A stretch of DNA of 33,939 bases from an archaeon (lineage in GTDB: Archaea; Thermoplasmatota; Thermoplasmata; Methanomassiliicoccales; Methanomethylophilaceae), in contig JAKSHS010000008.1 of the NCBI GenBank assembly GCA_024399275.1, positions 1 through 33,939 on the forward strand, given 5' to 3'. Of the stretch, positions 7,525-23,876 are shown piece by piece (position 1 is the stretch's first letter; every line of letters starts with the position of its first letter). A program made the translations under genes and the position numbers. The notes below the pieces were generated by a model. That model searched no databases. It saw only the letters and a list, made by a program, of their open reading frames with translations, and was not told where the DNA came from.

Positions 7525-7678
7525 CTACGTAAAATAAAAGCAAGTGATTATTTCGAGCTGGATAACTCTAAATGTAAGTTGATTTGTACCTCTCCAACCA
7601 GCACAAGCAGTATGCTTCATTATTAGAAAAAAACCCAGTTAAATGTTTAATTACTACCATATCATGAGAGGAAAAAGA

Positions 7679-8518
7679 ATGAAAACAGTTGCAGACATCA
7701 TGTCACATCTACCTATTGTCGCTGAAGTTCCTGGAACCCGCAGTGATGCAATTAACATAATGGTCAGAAATGGCATCACAGGAGTTCCGGTTGTTCGTTC
7801 AAGTGATGGCAAACTAGTGGGTATTGTTTCAAGAAAGGATATATTCAGAAATTTTGACGAAGATCAGCTCTCAATCATAATGAAAAAAGATTTCATCACG
7901 GTTGAATCCACAGCAACAATTCCTAGCGTTGCAAAGATATTCTTAGATAAAAGAATCCACAGAATTCCTGTTGTTAAAGATGGCAAGCTAGTTGGTGTTA
8001 TCACGCCCACAGACTTCCTCGACGAAATAAGAGAATTAAAAACAAATGTTACTGCAGGGGAAGCGATTACACAAACATGCGCAACAGTATACGTCAATGA
8101 CCCTCTATCATACGTAGTTTCATCGATGAGAGTCAATGAAATAATGTCACTTCCAGTCTTGGATGCAAAAGGTGATCTAGTTGGCATCATCACAGACAGA
8201 GATCTCTTTACCGATCAAACAAAAGATCTCGATGCCTTAAGAGAAATGGGGCTCGATGAAGCTGACCAAATGCTTGCGGGATACAGAAACGTCCTCCCGC
8301 TATTCTACGTTGCAACAAACAAAAATTTGCCGGAAGAATACACCGTTCGGGATTTTATGATTAGCAAACCCACGACAGTTTACAAAAAAACATCACTGTC
8401 TGAGGTCGCTAAAATTATGAAACAAAATAACTTCAGTCAAATACTTGTACATGGAAACAAAGGCGAACTCGTTGGTATGATTTATGATATCGACGTACTT
8501 GCAGCACTCTTAAGGTAG
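7679..8518 (+). CDS. Four-CBS-domain protein in an operon with glyS
   Basis: The 279-residue protein consists of four CBS repeats (roughly 5-57, 65-115, 122-178 and 228-279), i.e. two Bateman modules that usually bind adenine nucleotides or S-adenosylmethionine. Typical elements are GVPVVRSSDGKLVGIVSRKD and RIPVVKDGKLVGVITPTD. No catalytic domain is attached. The start is set at the ATG at 7679 because GAGAGGA lies eight bases upstream and the first CBS helix begins at once; the frame is open 12 codons further up. The glyS start follows four bases after the TAG, so the two are co-transcribed. A regulatory role tied to charging or energy state is an inference from this coupling. Confidence 0.88.
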   Translation: MKTVADIMSHLPIVAEVPGTRSDAINIMVRNGITGVPVVRSSDGKLVGIVSRKDIFRNFDEDQLSIIMKKDFITVESTATIPSVAKIFLDKRIHRIPVVKDGKLVGVITPTDFLDEIRELKTNVTAGEAITQTCATVYVNDPLSYVVSSMRVNEIMSLPVLDAKGDLVGIITDRDLFTDQTKDLDALREMGLDEADQMLAGYRNVLPLFYVATNKNLPEEYTVRDFMISKPTTVYKKTSLSEVAKIMKQNNFSQILVHGNKGELVGMIYDIDVLAALLR

Positions 8519-8522
8519 TAAT

Positions 8523-10229
8523 ATGCCCGATTCATCAGAACTCTTAGCTCTTTGTAAACGCCGAGGCTTCATTTGGCCATCATTCGAAGTGTATGGAGGT
8601 GTCGCAGGAATGTTTGACTATGGTCCTCTCGGATGCACTCTCAAAAATAACATCATAAACGTATGGAGGTCCATTTATAAGGGGGAAGAAAAGTTCGTCG
8701 AGATCGATTCTGAGACTATAAGTCCTAGAGATGTTTTCAAGGCCTCCGGGCACATCGACGGCTTCTCGGATCTTATTACATACTGTCAAAAATGCCACAC
8801 GCCGTTTAGAGCAGATCATCTGGTAGAAAAATTTTGTAAAAATCCAGATAAACTCTCTCCTGGGGAACTAGAAGGGCTGTTTGCTGAACACAATGTCAAA
8901 TGTCCTGAATGTGACGGAGATCTTGGTCAAATAAGTGAATTTAATCTCATGTTCAAGACCAGTATTGGGCCTGGTTCAATACGTGAGGGATATCTCAGAC
9001 CTGAAACAGCGCAAGGGATCTTTGTCAACTATCTTAACCTCTATAGGTACAACAGAGAAAAGCTACCATTCGGCGTTATACAGATAGGCAAGAGTTACAG
9101 AAACGAAATTGCGCCTCGTCAAGGTATGATGCGCATGAGGGAATTTAATCAGATGGAAGCAGAACTTTTCATTGATCCAGAAGATAAAAATTGGTCGAAA
9201 TTCAAGGAAATCGAAAACGAAAAGCTGAATCTCATTCCTAACACAACACTTGAACTTACAACAATAACAGTTGGAGAAGCCGTTGAAAGGGGCGTTATCG
9301 CCAACCAAGTTCTAGCATATTTTGTATACGTAACGAAACGATTCCTCACAACAATAGGTATAGATTCCGATAAACTTAGATTCAGGGAACACGAAAAAGA
9401 TGAAATGGCCCACTACGCGACAGATTGTTGGGATGCTGAAGTTCTGCTTTCGTATGGCTGGATAGAAATCGTTGGTATTGCCGATAGAGGATGCTGGGAT
9501 CTCTCAAGACACGCAAAGTTTTCCGGCCAAGACATGACATATTTTAGAAAATATAATAGCCCTAAGGAGGTAGACATAACCCGAATTAAAGCAAAAAATA
9601 GGGCAATCGGCCTTAAATTCAAAGAACGAGCAAAGGACGTCATGACAGAAATTGAAAGTCTTAAACCTGAAAACATTAAGAATGGAAGAATCACTGTCAG
9701 CGTTGGTAATGAAACTATTGAACTCAATGAAGAATTCTTTGAAGTAATTCTTACTAAAGAAAAAGTTACGGGTGATCGTATCATCCCTCATGTTATTGAA
9801 CCCTCCCATGGACTTGACAGAATATTATACTCCACTCTTGAGCATGCATATGAGCGTGATAATGAAGAAAACCGCACGATTCTCCATTTTATGCCGACAG
9901 TAGCACCAATTAAGGTCGGAGTGTTTCCTCTCATGGAAAAAGACGGTCTTGACAAGGTAGCCTATAAAATTTACAGCGATATTTGCTCCTCTGGAATCGA
10001 AGCATACTATGACAGTTCCGGTACAATTGGAAAAAGGTACGCTCGTATGGATGAAATTGGGACACCCTGGTGTATCACAGTAGACTACGAAACCATTGAA
10101 GACAAATCTAATAAAGAAACTGTCACAATCAGAGACCGAGATACCAAAGAGCAAAAACGCATAGAAATAAAGAGTATAAAAGAAATCTTAGGAAGGCTAT
10201 TAAACAATGCAAAGTTTGCCTCCTTGTAA
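8523..10229 (+). CDS. glyS: Glycyl-tRNA synthetase (archaeal/eukaryotic type)
   Basis: This 568-residue class II synthetase charges tRNA-Gly. The N-terminus has the signature RRGFIWPSFEVYGGVAGMFD and YGPLG. RPETAQGIFVNY lies near residue 159. Motif 2 covers about 185-210 (IGKSYRNEIAPRQG, MREFNQMEAE). Motif 3 is HGLDRILYSTLEHA near 430, and the anticodon-binding domain follows (APIKVGVFPLM). Two CxxC pairs in the insertion (CQKCH near 88 and CPEC near 128) suggest a bound zinc. Length is normal for the alpha2-type enzyme. It follows a four-CBS protein gene by four bases. Two tRNA-Gly genes (GCC and CCC anticodons) lie elsewhere in this window. Confidence 0.97.
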   Translation: MPDSSELLALCKRRGFIWPSFEVYGGVAGMFDYGPLGCTLKNNIINVWRSIYKGEEKFVEIDSETISPRDVFKASGHIDGFSDLITYCQKCHTPFRADHLVEKFCKNPDKLSPGELEGLFAEHNVKCPECDGDLGQISEFNLMFKTSIGPGSIREGYLRPETAQGIFVNYLNLYRYNREKLPFGVIQIGKSYRNEIAPRQGMMRMREFNQMEAELFIDPEDKNWSKFKEIENEKLNLIPNTTLELTTITVGEAVERGVIANQVLAYFVYVTKRFLTTIGIDSDKLRFREHEKDEMAHYATDCWDAEVLLSYGWIEIVGIADRGCWDLSRHAKFSGQDMTYFRKYNSPKEVDITRIKAKNRAIGLKFKERAKDVMTEIESLKPENIKNGRITVSVGNETIELNEEFFEVILTKEKVTGDRIIPHVIEPSHGLDRILYSTLEHAYERDNEENRTILHFMPTVAPIKVGVFPLMEKDGLDKVAYKIYSDICSSGIEAYYDSSGTIGKRYARMDEIGTPWCITVDYETIEDKSNKETVTIRDRDTKEQKRIEIKSIKEILGRLLNNAKFASL

Positions 10230-10303: not shown

Positions 10304-10311
10304 CTTTATAT
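10304..10311 (+). promoter_or_regulatory. TATA-like box for the CBS-HPF gene
   Basis: CTTTATAT at 10304-10311 should start transcription near 10333, just before a good ribosome binding site GAGGTG (10336-10341). This placement argues that translation starts well upstream of the first ATG in the frame. Confidence 0.45.
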
Positions 10312-10347
10312 CCTTACCCAAGTGGTATTACAATCGAGGTGTGATAC

Positions 10348-11535
10348 ACGGAAGCAGCGGACCTACAAGACGTTAAAAGAATTTCCATCCTTAGATCTCA
10401 ATTTGATAATAAAAAAGTCGAAAAGATCATGGATGACAAATTCCCAACTATCGGATTGGATGAAAGACTTATAGACGCTATCACACTGATGCGTAGATCA
10501 GGATATCAGGACATCCCAGTCGTTAAAGACGAAGAATACCTTGGAACAATCAGCTACGGAGACGTTCTCAAAAAGAAAAATACTGCATTAGATTCAAAAA
10601 TTCGAAACCTTGTAAGCACGTCCCCTACGATAACCGAAAAGACAGACATCACAAAAATTGCAGAAATTATGATAACAAATGATCTAAGGCAAGTTCCTGT
10701 CGTATGCAGTGATAAAAAGAAAGTTATCGGATGTGTTGGAAGAAATCATCTTGTTAACCTAGCGGCTGGCATAAAAGCAATATGTGACATCAAAGTATGG
10801 GAAATAATGACCTCCACTATCGAAAGTGTTCATGAATACTCTACAATCGATGAAGCCATAGATGTCATGAGATCTCTTGATATAAGGGCCCTGCCAGTTA
10901 TTGACAACTCGAACAAAGTTATAGGCATTTTTGGCATGAATGAGGTTATCTCCAGTAACTGGAGGCCGTCAAATAAAACAATCGGAGACATTTTTGGGAG
11001 GGACAAAAAATCTTCCGCAAGAGTAGGGTCTATTTGTACCTCAGCAGTAAAATCCGTAAAATGGAACGATCCACTCGGAAATGCAATGAAAATTATGTTA
11101 GATAACGAATTCTCTACAGTGCCGGTCACAGAAAATGATAAACTTGTTGGAACTGTAGCACAATGCGATATCATAGAGCTCATATCAGCATGTAAAAAAA
11201 GAGATCATCTTTTTGTACAATTGAGCGGCCTTGACGAAATAGACAAAGCCAACACAAGCGCGATTTATGAAGTTGTAAAGGATGAAATCGATAAAATAAA
11301 GAGGATAGGTTTACCAGAATCACTTTCCATCAACATATCAAAGTACAACGAAAAGGGTGAAAAGAATAAATACAGCATGAGTGCCAGACTCATGTTTAAT
11401 GGACGTATATTTAATGCAAAACAAGTCGATTGGGATCTTATCAAAACAGTTAATGATTTGGTAAAAAAGCTTACCAATGCGGTGATAAGTTCTAAGGACA
11501 CAGCTACATCCTTAAGGAAAAGGAAAAAGGCATAA
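10348..11535 (+). CDS. Four-CBS protein fused to an S30AE/HPF-like domain; probable ACG start
   Basis: Four CBS repeats are followed by about 110 residues resembling the S30AE fold of ribosome hibernation factors. The C-terminal part begins FVQLSGLDEIDKAN, continues LSINISKYNEKGEKNKYSMS and ends with FNAKQVDWDLIKTVNDLVKK and a basic RKRKK tail. Such fusions are plausible nucleotide-sensing ribosome-silencing factors. The first ATG (10429, 368 residues) has no ribosome binding site and cuts the first CBS domain. The frame stays open upstream to a TGA at 10342-10344, with GAGGTG six bases before an ACG at 10348. Starting there adds EAADLQDVKRISILRSQFDN and the missing VEKI. I therefore favour ACG (395 residues), with the ATG as the fallback. 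The domain call is from remembered family pattern. Confidence 0.75.
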   Translation, partial: TEAADLQDVKRISILRSQFDNKKVEKIMDDKFPTIGLDERLIDAITLMRRSGYQDIPVVKDEEYLGTISYGDVLKKKNTALDSKIRNLVSTSPTITEKTDITKIAEIMITNDLRQVPVVCSDKKKVIGCVGRNHLVNLAAGIKAICDIKVWEIMTSTIESVHEYSTIDEAIDVMRSLDIRALPVIDNSNKVIGIFGMNEVISSNWRPSNKTIGDIFGRDKKSSARVGSICTSAVKSVKWNDPLGNAMKIMLDNEFSTVPVTENDKLVGTVAQCDIIELISACKKRDHLFVQLSGLDEIDKANTSAIYEVVKDEIDKIKRIGLPESLSINISKYNEKGEKNKYSMSARLMFNGRIFNAKQVDWDLIKTVNDLVKKLTNAVISSKDTATSLRKRKKA

Positions 11536-11571
11536 CCCGTATGGAATACCCTTATCCATTTCCTTGAATGC

Positions 11572-11581
11572 TTTTATAAAT
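11572..11581 (+). promoter_or_regulatory. TATA box for valS
   Basis: CTTTTATAAA is centred about 27 bases before the ATG at 11603, which predicts a leaderless valS transcript and excludes the upstream ATG at 11564 as the start. Confidence 0.6.
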
Positions 11582-11602
11582 GCTCAACTCTCCCGGTACA
11601 TC

Positions 11603-14215
11603 ATGTCGCAGTACGATTCTGCAGCGATTGAGAGACGCTGTCGAGAGATTTGGAAAAAAGGTGAAGTCTATCGCTTCGACCCTAAATCAGATAAACCAAT
11701 CTATAGTATCGACAACCCCCCTCGGTATGCTTCAGGAGCGCTTCATCTCGGCCACGCCGTCGGATACTCATTAATCGATTTCGTAGCTCGATATAAGAGA
11801 ATGAAGGGGTACAATGTATTTTTCCCACTATGCTTCGATGTCAATGGAACACCTATCGAAATTAAAGTTGAAAAAAAGCATGGCATAACAAAGCTCAACA
11901 CATCTAGGGATAAGTACAGAGAATTGTGTGAAGAGTTCGCCAATGAGCAAATAAATCAAATGATCTGCGAATTTGAAATGCTCGGGGAGAGTATGGATCC
12001 CTCAATTTATTATCAAACAGACGCTACATATTATCGAAAAGTCACACAACTATCGTTCGTGGAATTATTTAAACGGGGGCTTGTCTACAAAGGAAACTAT
12101 CCGGTAAACTGGTGTCCTAGCTGTATGACCGCCCTCGCAGATGCCGAGGTAGAATACAAAAATAATACCAACAAGCTCAACTACGTCAATTTTCAAATTG
12201 CAGATGAGGAAGGATACGTCTGTGTTGCAACAACAAGGCCTGAGCTTCTCTGTACATGCAAAGCAGTAGCCGTTCATCCTGATGATACAGAAAAAAAACA
12301 CCTTGTCGGGAAAGAGCTCATTACGCCCATATTTAAAAGGAAAGTAAAAATTATTTCAGATCCGAAAGTCAAGGTAGATTACGGTACAGGAACTGTCATG
12401 ATTTGCACGATCGGAGATAAAGACGATCTCGAATGGGTAATGAAGTACCACTTCAAAATGGAGAAAGGTATTGATGAAGCTGGAAAAATGACGAACCTCG
12501 CAGGCAAATATGCAGGTATGCCAGTTATTAAAGCTCGAGAAGCTGTTATCGAGGACCTCATAAAACAAGGAGCAATTATTAAGCAGGAAGACAACCCACA
12601 ACAAGTCTCTACGTGTTGGAGGTGCCACGAACCTATAGAATATCTCCAAATGCCTCAATGGTTCCTTAAGACGCTTGAATTTAAAAAGCAAATTTTGGAA
12701 ATGGCAGATCATATCAGATGGTTCCCCGAATTCATGAAAATAAGACTACGGGACTGGGTCGATTCTCTTCAGTGGGATTGGGTTATTGGAAGACAGCGTA
12801 TTTTCGCAACGCCAATACCGTTATGGGAATGTAAGAAATGTGGACATGCTGTATGCGCCACTGAAGAAATGTGCTACTGCGATCCCGTAAAAGACAAACC
12901 CCCTGTTGACAAATGCCCTAAGTGCGAATGTGAAGAGTTTTTAGGATGCACGGATGTATTTGACACCTGGATGGATTCTTCAGGTTCAGTACTATATAAC
13001 ACATACTGGAGCAGGAATACGGATTCACACAAAAAACTCTACCCAATGTCATTAAGACCTCAATCTCATGATATTATTAGGACCTGGGCATTTTATACAA
13101 TTCTCAGAAGCTACCAACTTACTGGCCAAATACCGTGGAAAGACATCATGATTCATGGATTCATAATGTCCCCGGATGGTACACCTATGCACTCATCCAT
13201 AGGAAACATCATCGAACCCGTACCAATAATCAATCGTTATGGATCAGATGCTTTAAGGTATTATGCAAGCACATGCTCCCTGGGTATTGACCACGCCTTT
13301 AGGGAAAAAGACGTGGTTCGCGGGAGAAGGTTGTGTAACAAGATATTTAACATAGGACAGTTCGCGAAGTCTTTCCTTGACAAAAAACCCTCTGATACTG
13401 GAAACCTAAGGCTTCCTGATAAATGGATTATAAGTAAATTTACACAAACAGTGGAACTTGTTACAGATTGCTTTGAAGTATACGCATTTGACAAAGCCAT
13501 GAAGAATATCGAGAATCTTATTTGGCACGACATTGCCGACCATTACATTGAAATGATCAAGTCACGAAAGGATGTTGCTTCCAAGTACACTCTGTATAGC
13601 ATCTTTCTAGGAGCAATCAAACTCTTAGCACCTTTTATGCCATACGTAACAGAAAGCATCTACCAAGACGTTTTCTCCAAATACGAAGGAACAAAGAGCA
13701 TTCATCTTACGTCATGGCCAAAGCCCATCTTTACAGATTCTGAGGCAGAAAGGGCAGGTGACATTCTTAAGGATATAATTGCATCAATTCGCAGATGGAA
13801 ATCAGAAAGAAAGATTCCTCTCAATGCTAATATTCAAATGATTGAGTTAATAGGAGAGAACTCAAAGATTATTGAGCGCGCTGCTGATGATATTATTGCA
13901 ACAATCAGAGCAAAGAAATTACAGTTCGTAAAGGAAGCAAATCTTGTTGAAGAATACATTTCAGCCAAACCAGTATACGAAAAAATTGGGCCAAAATTTA
14001 AAAAAGAATCAAATTCTATCGCCGCAAAAATCTTAGAAATGAAACCCAACGATGTTGCCAAAGTACTTACTGATAAGACTATAAAAATTATGGTGAACAA
14101 AAAAGAAGTTATTCTTACTGCAGACTGTTTTGAATTTGAAAAGAGACTTACAATAGATGGAAGAGCTGTTGACACATTACAATTAGAGGGTATGTTAATA
14201 GCCATTGAAAGATAA
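11603..14215 (+). CDS. valS: Valyl-tRNA synthetase (archaeal type)
   Basis: The 870-residue class I synthetase charges tRNA-Val and edits mischarged threonine. The HIGH motif is HLGH at 48-51 (GALHLGHAVGYSL). The CP1 editing domain contains CVATTRPELL and GTGTVMICTIGDKDDLEW. Two zinc-ribbon-like groups are visible: CPSC near 172 and the CEYC-like pairs CKKCGHAVC and CPKCEC near 410-450. The anticodon-binding domain follows WIISKF, and a C-terminal coiled region ends the protein. The KMSKS loop is unusual: the aligned site reads DGTPMHSSIGNIIEP (about 525-538), lacking both lysines. The start at 11603 is chosen because a TATA box lies inside the longer frame and the protein aligns from MSQYDS. 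A partial tRNA-Val gene ends the window. Confidence 0.95.
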   Translation: MSQYDSAAIERRCREIWKKGEVYRFDPKSDKPIYSIDNPPRYASGALHLGHAVGYSLIDFVARYKRMKGYNVFFPLCFDVNGTPIEIKVEKKHGITKLNTSRDKYRELCEEFANEQINQMICEFEMLGESMDPSIYYQTDATYYRKVTQLSFVELFKRGLVYKGNYPVNWCPSCMTALADAEVEYKNNTNKLNYVNFQIADEEGYVCVATTRPELLCTCKAVAVHPDDTEKKHLVGKELITPIFKRKVKIISDPKVKVDYGTGTVMICTIGDKDDLEWVMKYHFKMEKGIDEAGKMTNLAGKYAGMPVIKAREAVIEDLIKQGAIIKQEDNPQQVSTCWRCHEPIEYLQMPQWFLKTLEFKKQILEMADHIRWFPEFMKIRLRDWVDSLQWDWVIGRQRIFATPIPLWECKKCGHAVCATEEMCYCDPVKDKPPVDKCPKCECEEFLGCTDVFDTWMDSSGSVLYNTYWSRNTDSHKKLYPMSLRPQSHDIIRTWAFYTILRSYQLTGQIPWKDIMIHGFIMSPDGTPMHSSIGNIIEPVPIINRYGSDALRYYASTCSLGIDHAFREKDVVRGRRLCNKIFNIGQFAKSFLDKKPSDTGNLRLPDKWIISKFTQTVELVTDCFEVYAFDKAMKNIENLIWHDIADHYIEMIKSRKDVASKYTLYSIFLGAIKLLAPFMPYVTESIYQDVFSKYEGTKSIHLTSWPKPIFTDSEAERAGDILKDIIASIRRWKSERKIPLNANIQMIELIGENSKIIERAADDIIATIRAKKLQFVKEANLVEEYISAKPVYEKIGPKFKKESNSIAAKILEMKPNDVAKVLTDKTIKIMVNKKEVILTADCFEFEKRLTIDGRAVDTLQLEGMLIAIER

Positions 14216-22971: not shown

Positions 22972-23805
22972 TTACTCGCTGTCTTCAAGCCTCTTACTAA
23001 TGCTACTAGCCTCCTCATTTGGTAGTAGCATGGCTTTTCCTTGCATAAACGGATGTTTCAAGCCCTCAACTATCTCGACATCATCCAACGTATGAAGCCC
23101 CCATTTCTCAGCAGTTCTCTCAAGCCCGAGGCGGACGTTGAGATCGTCAGGCTCTAAAACTATTGCCTTATATTTTTCGATGCCCAATTTCATTGCTGCC
23201 ATTGCCCTATGGTGTCCATCGACAATGAGGTATCCCTTATTTCTTTTAACAACGATAAGAGGCTCGATGAGGCCTTTTTTAATTTCATACTGTCTCCCAA
23301 CCAATTCATCCATATAGACCTCTTTTTGTGATGGGAGAACTTGTGTCATTGGAATGTCCATACTCATGATTTGAATTTTTATATCATTATGTGACTCGAG
23401 AAACGATTTTACAGATGTAACTTTAGAGGGTCGAATCTTTTCAATCTGCGAACGCACAATATCGATATTCGATATAATCCCAACAAGCTTTCTATTGCTA
23501 TCGACAACAGGAAGATTTCTTATTCCATATCTAAACAAGATTCGAGTTGCATCGCTGATTTTCATTGATGGTACCGCATAGACAGTTCCGCGCTTTACAA
23601 CATCACGCATAGTGGCATCCGGGCGATCGACATATCTTAGCAATTCTTTGGACGTTACAAATCCTAAAAGATACCCTCGCTCAGTAACAGGGAAACCATA
23701 AAAATTTGAATGGACTATCTTTTCTATGGTCTCCTTAACTGTCATATCCAAAGATATAGAAACTACATTCCTGACCATATAGTTGGCAACCGTCTCCTCA
23801 TCCAT
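22972..23805 (-). CDS. CBS-pair protein with ParB/SerK-like domain
   Basis: Two CBS repeats (about residues 5-60 and 66-124 of 277) are followed by a ParB/sulfiredoxin-fold domain at about 140-225. Its key motif is YLIVDGHHRAMAA, with DGHHR at 196-200. In this fold some archaeal proteins are free-serine kinases (SerK) rather than DNA-partitioning factors, and no helix-turn-helix DNA-binding domain follows here. I therefore consider a nucleotide-sensing small-molecule kinase more likely than chromosome partitioning. The ATG at 23805 is preceded by GTGGTT; a GTG start four codons upstream (23817) is possible. The gene converges on ppsA with 15 bases between stops. A TATA-like TATTAAATG lies near 23860. 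Confidence 0.8.
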   Translation of the reverse strand: MDEETVANYMVRNVVSISLDMTVKETIEKIVHSNFYGFPVTERGYLLGFVTSKELLRYVDRPDATMRDVVKRGTVYAVPSMKISDATRILFRYGIRNLPVVDSNRKLVGIISNIDIVRSQIEKIRPSKVTSVKSFLESHNDIKIQIMSMDIPMTQVLPSQKEVYMDELVGRQYEIKKGLIEPLIVVKRNKGYLIVDGHHRAMAAMKLGIEKYKAIVLEPDDLNVRLGLERTAEKWGLHTLDDVEIVEGLKHPFMQGKAMLLPNEEASSISKRLEDSE

Positions 23806-23876
23806 CAAATTAACCACATCACATGTAGGATATATTGTCTACTAGGCCAACTATCATTTAATACTTACAGATAAGA

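Follow-up and report, generated by a model that had tools for sequence, protein, structure and literature searches.

A probable HibA-type ribosome hibernation factor gene with an apparently non-standard start codon in a Methanomassiliicoccales methanogen

The window analyzed here, a stretch of 33,939 nucleotides from a Methanomassiliicoccales methanogen, harbors a gene that is very probably this organism's orthologue of hibA, which codes for a ribosome hibernation factor of archaea. Domain architecture, sequence homology, and the predicted fold all make its product a member of the HibA family, and we infer its function from the characterized members. Because its full length matches the solved HibA of P. 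abyssi, the gene represents an orthologue of a known family and no new kind of protein; the hibernation-factor family is already in print, and the window gene is ordinary in kind. The only unusual feature is that hibA, in this organism as well as in several of its relatives, appears to start with a non-standard codon.

Cryo-EM, in vitro translation assays, and a gene deletion have served to characterize the HibA family (PMC13324472). According to that report, HibA combines four CBS domains with an HPF/RaiA domain, is present in 47% of archaeal genomes, and inhibits in vitro translation; its C-terminal domain occupies the 30S mRNA channel, its CBS module adopts three positions on the 50S, and deletion of hibA in T. 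barophilus led to a longer lag and to a decrease of 70S by about 60% (PMC13324472). The best full-length sequence match of the window protein in the PDB was 9sr9_H (residues 23-391 against 5-380, phmmer E 2.1e-22), a chain which carries the label 'Dehydrogenase' and belongs to the entry 9SR9, described as the deposited HibA-ATP entry of P. abyssi in the data section of PMC13324472. This match bears out the proposal of a candidate archaeal hibernation factor made in the first-pass annotation. In the same way as the HibA proteins of P. abyssi (Q9UYR4) and Thermococcus barophilus (F0LKU5), as they are described in PMC13324472, the window protein has four CBS domains followed by an S30AE/HPF domain in a chain of roughly 390 residues, with collinear alignment along its whole length. 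The pairwise alignment with P. abyssi HibA showed a difference of about one residue at each place compared. Both proteins have a loop between CBS3 and CBS4, and the long PTC loop appears to be of similar length in this alignment. The window gene differs from the two characterized ones in coming from a different order of Archaea, in carrying ACG in the start-codon place, and in the replacement of the CBS4 Thr by Ala, which is shared with the sister protein of genome G003.

The plus-strand open frame extends from 10345 to a TAA at 11533-11535, and the features found within and around it are collected in Table 1. The Pfam search (hmmscan) detected PF00571 with an E of 5.9e-39 for the whole protein and with four domain matches above the cut-off, and the model aligns to four-CBS chains. 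Together with PF02482 and the basic tail, this reproduces the architecture of four CBS repeats and a C-terminal S30AE/HPF-like domain with which the gene had been annotated at first pass. Around residues 213-220, in the linker between CBS3 and CBS4, model confidence is low. In the draft genome (0.75 Mb, 79% complete), the six-frame genome search returned the window protein as the only S30AE match, and the CBS matches of the whole genome fall in three chains, all inside the window, namely the 7643-8518 gene, HibA, and a CBS-ParB protein at 22972-23817. The latter, on the minus strand, has two CBS domains and a ParB_N-like domain (PF02195, E 1.3e-4, under its cut-off). The same genome also encodes, outside the window, an SBDS_N domain (PF01172, 2.8e-16; G000:C1:173903-174160, minus strand); SBDS is a factor reported alongside HibA on the idle ribosomes of P. 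abyssi (PMC13324472).

Table 1. Features of the hibA region, with positions counted from the first letter of the window.
Feature	Position	Strand	Remarks
Stand-alone four-CBS protein, upstream of glyS	7643..8518	+	Best NCBIfam match HhpR, 3.5e-36, 125 of 520 bits
glyS (TIGR00389), conserved upstream neighbor	8523..10229	+	
TATA-like box TTTATAT	10305..10311	+	43 nt before ACG
Shine-Dalgarno-like GAGGTG	10336..10341	+	6 nt before ACG
ACG at the start-codon position of homologues	10348..10350	+	ATG in the 85%-identical G003
hibA, CBS x4 + S30AE/HPF fusion	10348..11535	+	395 codons from ACG at 10348 plus stop
CBS domain 1	10417..10575	+	Above Pfam cut-off
CBS domain 2	10603..10761	+	Above Pfam cut-off
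CBS domain 3	10798..10953	+	Above Pfam cut-off
CBS3-CBS4 linker	10954..11022	+	Aligns with PTC loop, P. abyssi HibA residues 190-207
CBS domain 4	11023..11187	+	Above Pfam cut-off; T/S-x-x-D motif reads A-Q-C-D
Ribosomal_S30AE / HPF domain (PF02482)	11254..11499	+	Pfam; residues 303-384
Basic C-terminal tail	11500..11532	+	Translation; SLRKRKKA
valS (PRK13208), conserved downstream neighbor	11564..14215	+	ATG at 11603 by homologues

By sequence alone the S30AE domain is borderline, since hmmscan gave PF02482 20.3 bits (E 9.6e-4), below the cut-off of 23.7, and the six-frame genome search gave 23.4 bits alone and 23.8 bits with neighbors. A single-sequence phmmer search of the C-terminal domain against the PDB yielded just one chain, 8rd8_D, at E 0.91; a 16-row profile of homologous C-termini reached this same chain, the RaiA of P. 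urativorans, with E 7.8e-4, and the same profile matched HibA 9sr9_H at only 0.092 and Coxiella 3tqm at 0.094. The AlphaFold2 model, built with 13 sequences (mean pLDDT 79.2, pTM 0.72), shows C-terminal elements E289-293, H299-318, E323-333, E341-350, E353-361, and H364-394, which follow the order reported for HPF/RaiA (PMC13324472). When the C-terminal domain was folded alone, as a single sequence without alignment, pLDDT was 73.7. Foldseek with this domain alone placed S30AE ribosome factors in all nine top rows, at weak E values of 0.02-0.15; these are ribosome entries of chloroplast pY/HPF, bacterial HPF/hibernation factors, and mycobacterial MPY/RafH, and the best VIA-align score was Z 5.0 (6dzk_Y, 3.2 A over 77). 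The Pfam, profile, AlphaFold2, and Foldseek evidence agrees on S30AE, no single line being strong, and the predicted fold at the C-terminus is that of S30AE, as first proposed; no contrary fold was found. In Foldseek and VIA-align searches with the whole model (library to 2026-04-08), HibA was not among the matches listed; these were all partners of the CBS module, since hits to the CBS part took up the whole list. By VIA-align, this part superposed on Sulfolobus 3ddj with Z 27.0 (3.3 A over 263), on the 70S-bound SriA/SriB entry 9znf_4 of M. acetivorans with Z 26.9 (2.7 A over 256), and on Dri 9e7f_3 with Z 24.5 (2.9 A over 258).

Several other ribosome-associated families share one of the two halves of the window protein. 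The bacterial HPF/RaiA/YfiA proteins and chloroplast pY (S30AE) share with it the C-terminal fold and the predicted binding site, whereas they have no CBS module and show low sequence identity. Bacterial long HPF was rejected as an identity, its S30AE domain being N-terminal and followed by a C-terminal dimerization domain, whereas in the window protein S30AE is C-terminal with no Pfam domain after it. Dri of Pyrobaculum calidifontis (9e6q/9e7f) and SriA-D of Methanosarcina acetivorans (9znf/9zng/9zni) have CBS folds close to the window module (VIA-align Z 22.3 to 26.9). Dri is described as a protein of two CBS modules that lacks S30AE (PMC13324472), and this identity was rejected as well, the window protein consisting of one four-CBS module plus S30AE as opposed to eight CBS domains without S30AE. 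SriA-D are stand-alone CBS ribosome factors, compared here by their PDB titles; their source paper was not among the matches listed in our literature search. HhpR / CM-3, the best NCBIfam match of the adjacent 7643-8518 gene, is also a four-CBS chain, yet it has no S30AE domain and is a transcriptional regulator according to PMC13324472.

The position of hibA between glyS and valS is a conserved arrangement throughout the order. Among 40 wide loci (L032-L071, with G022 counted twice), glyS lies directly 5' of hibA in 38 and valS lies 3' in 33. The two loci without adjacent glyS are L036, which holds the extra copies of G022, and that of G004, with glyS about 10 kb off; of the seven loci without valS, four are cut off by a contig end (L035, L059, L064, and L065); no such cut affects the other three (L036, L056, and L069). 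Of 61 genomes searched across the genus, family, and order, counting that of the window, 57 gave a hibA match below 1e-60. At 1e-30 the gene was found in 93 of 102 family genomes and in 44 of the 45 with completeness of 90% or more and contamination of 5% or less. Those relatives that bear a name are MAGs of Methanomassiliicoccaceae and Candidatus Methanoplasma, and the nearest (85%) came from horse feces. G002, the only high-quality genome of the family that lacks hibA, belongs to the same genus and is 96% complete; its glyS-valS gap spans 468 nt (L178, G002:C155:29000-35760), and no remnant of hibA was found in this gap. G002 is a natural hibA deletion, and, because it has both glyS and valS and no hibA, the gene must be dispensable somewhere. 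Conversely, in f6, another family of the order, six of the eight genomes hold a tandem hibA pair between glyS and valS (L044, L046, L050, L051, L053, and L054), and G022 has two further copies elsewhere beside the standard one. Since the downstream copies of f6 cluster together with support in the FastTree tree, the tandem pairs are likely to derive from one old duplication. The main-text passages on duplication in the HibA paper make no mention of it (PMC13324472).

The start codon was compared across the same relatives. At 10348, where the first-pass annotation began the gene, the codon is ACG. In the window hibA, the first in-frame ATG, GTG, or TTG is the ATG at 10429, inside CBS1, and the aligned N-termini read T-E-A-A-DLQD in the window and M-G-T-E-DLQD in G003, in which the distance from Shine-Dalgarno to start is 2 nt shorter. 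The 91 hibA 5' ends of family f1 begin with ATG (54), TTG (21), ATA (8), GTG (7), and ACG (1). At these loci of the same family, ATG opens valS in 56/56, glyS in 56/65 (the remainder GTG or TTG), and the CBS-only gene in 55/62 (7 TTG; the gene of G018 read as ATG). Fisher tests of non-ATG starts in hibA against valS, glyS, and the CBS-only gene, which ignore shared ancestry and count the CBS-only gene of G018 as GTG, gave p values of 5.9e-10, 3.2e-4, and 2.5e-4, respectively; the scan of the control genes sought only ATG, GTG, and TTG, and each of them had one near its start. Parsimony on the FastTree tree counted 10 switches from ATG to non-ATG or back; for ATA the number was 4. The ATA codon occurs in 7 of the 14 hibA genes of genus g4, among them that of the single-contig genome G006; the eighth case is G103, from genus g3. 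Five of these eight genes have no in-frame canonical codon upstream; in the other three a different start is possible, as such a codon is present at -4 (TTG), -8 (ATG), or -21 (ATG).

The upstream signals mostly accompany these codons. A Shine-Dalgarno-like motif is located 4-7 nt 5' of the start in all 37 non-ATG hibA genes, and it is missing in four of the 54 with ATG. Of 89 regions upstream of hibA, 67 contain a TATA-like hexamer at -50 to -25, with a peak at -45 to -39, compared with 7/89 after shuffling, and a TATA-like box lies at -50 to -36 in six of the eight ATA genes as well as in the ACG gene. Set against the always-ATG valS, the non-ATG starts of hibA hint at translational control, although they may instead reflect drift. 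By analogy, it is possible, and we advance it only tentatively, that hibA of the Methanomassiliicoccales has a deliberately weak start (often TTG, GTG, or ATA, and ACG in the window) behind its own TATA-like box about 42 nt ahead and a Shine-Dalgarno motif 4-8 nt ahead, through which the initiation state of the 30S would set the level of its own blocker. In bacteria, infC starts with AUU. The GTC start of Streptomyces sigR, reported to be repressed by IF3, provides a precedent for start-codon control (PMC5472188). A literature search for AUA start codons in archaea returned, by title, only work on Mycobacterium tuberculosis.

The ACG could instead mark a decaying gene, its start lost in a lineage that is shedding hibA, with the protein either not made or initiated at 10429, so that it would lack the beginning of CBS1. 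The lack of a canonical start ahead of 10429 and the clean absence of hibA from G002, in the same genus, would fit such a loss. We nevertheless regard it as very unlikely, as the frame is intact, the TATA-like box and the Shine-Dalgarno motif keep their spacing to the ACG, and eight other family genomes have ATA at the same codon. Selection argues in the same direction: by the Nei-Gojobori method, applied to the single pair of the window and G003, dN/dS of hibA was 0.095 (a value in which a recent loss would not yet show), with 0.097 for the CBS part and 0.087 for the HPF part. The neighbors ranged from 0.053 to 0.106 (glyS 0.060, the CBS-only gene 0.053, and, named from a reading of their translations, an amidohydrolase 0.106 and a TrxB-like gene 0.093). 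The window hibA is under purifying selection, with both halves constrained alike. The ACG itself may be a base error of the draft genome. It is still less probable, to the point of being hardly credible, that this CBS-S30AE protein mainly serves some other purpose, for instance sequestration together with proteins of DNA recombination or replication. HibA was found with proteins of this sort in Thermococcales pull-downs, but gene deletion and cryo-EM place it on ribosomes (PMC13324472), and the window neighbors are translation genes.

A further reading concerns the CBS module, which had been expected at first pass to link nucleotide status to ribosome silencing. We scored the ribose/phosphate motif, which we take to be G-x-x-T/S-x-x-D, in an alignment of 110 homologues. 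In CBS4, Thr or Ser is kept in 108/110 and Asp in 110/110, the two exceptions with Ala at the Thr/Ser place being the window protein and G003; in CBS3, this place is Gly in 110/110. Judged from the alignment, the CBS4 Ala may weaken adenylate binding in the window/G003 sub-lineage. A switch in which AMP or ATP on the CBS module decides ribosome silencing by S30AE would agree with the four CBS domains, with the conservation of CBS4 in the homologues, and with the binding of AMP by P. abyssi HibA (Kd 12 uM, nucleotide at the CBS3/4 interface; PMC13324472). It is nonetheless unlikely: AMP, ADP, and ATP all bind P. abyssi HibA, and no clear effect on ribosome binding is reported for them (PMC13324472), and the window protein is itself one of the two that have lost the CBS4 hydroxyl residue. 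Because the P. abyssi nucleotide site is at CBS3/4, where the window protein has Ala and Gly, the nucleotide link is weaker here than had been supposed, and that part of the first-pass annotation is not upheld.

Under the preferred reading, that of a HibA orthologue, the mechanism would be the one described for P. abyssi and T. barophilus HibA (PMC13324472), in which 70S ribosomes would be held inactive and shielded from nucleases until growth returns. A literature search combining Methanomassiliicoccales and ribosome hibernation found no paper, and the present analysis places a characterized ribosome-protection factor in gut methanogens. It also marks natural variants, namely a genome without hibA beside relatives that have it, the tandem copies in family f6, and the non-AUG starts, which make testable both the worth of HibA to a host-associated archaeon and the control of hibernation-factor synthesis at initiation. 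Of all these findings, it is the pattern of start codons that deserves follow-up.
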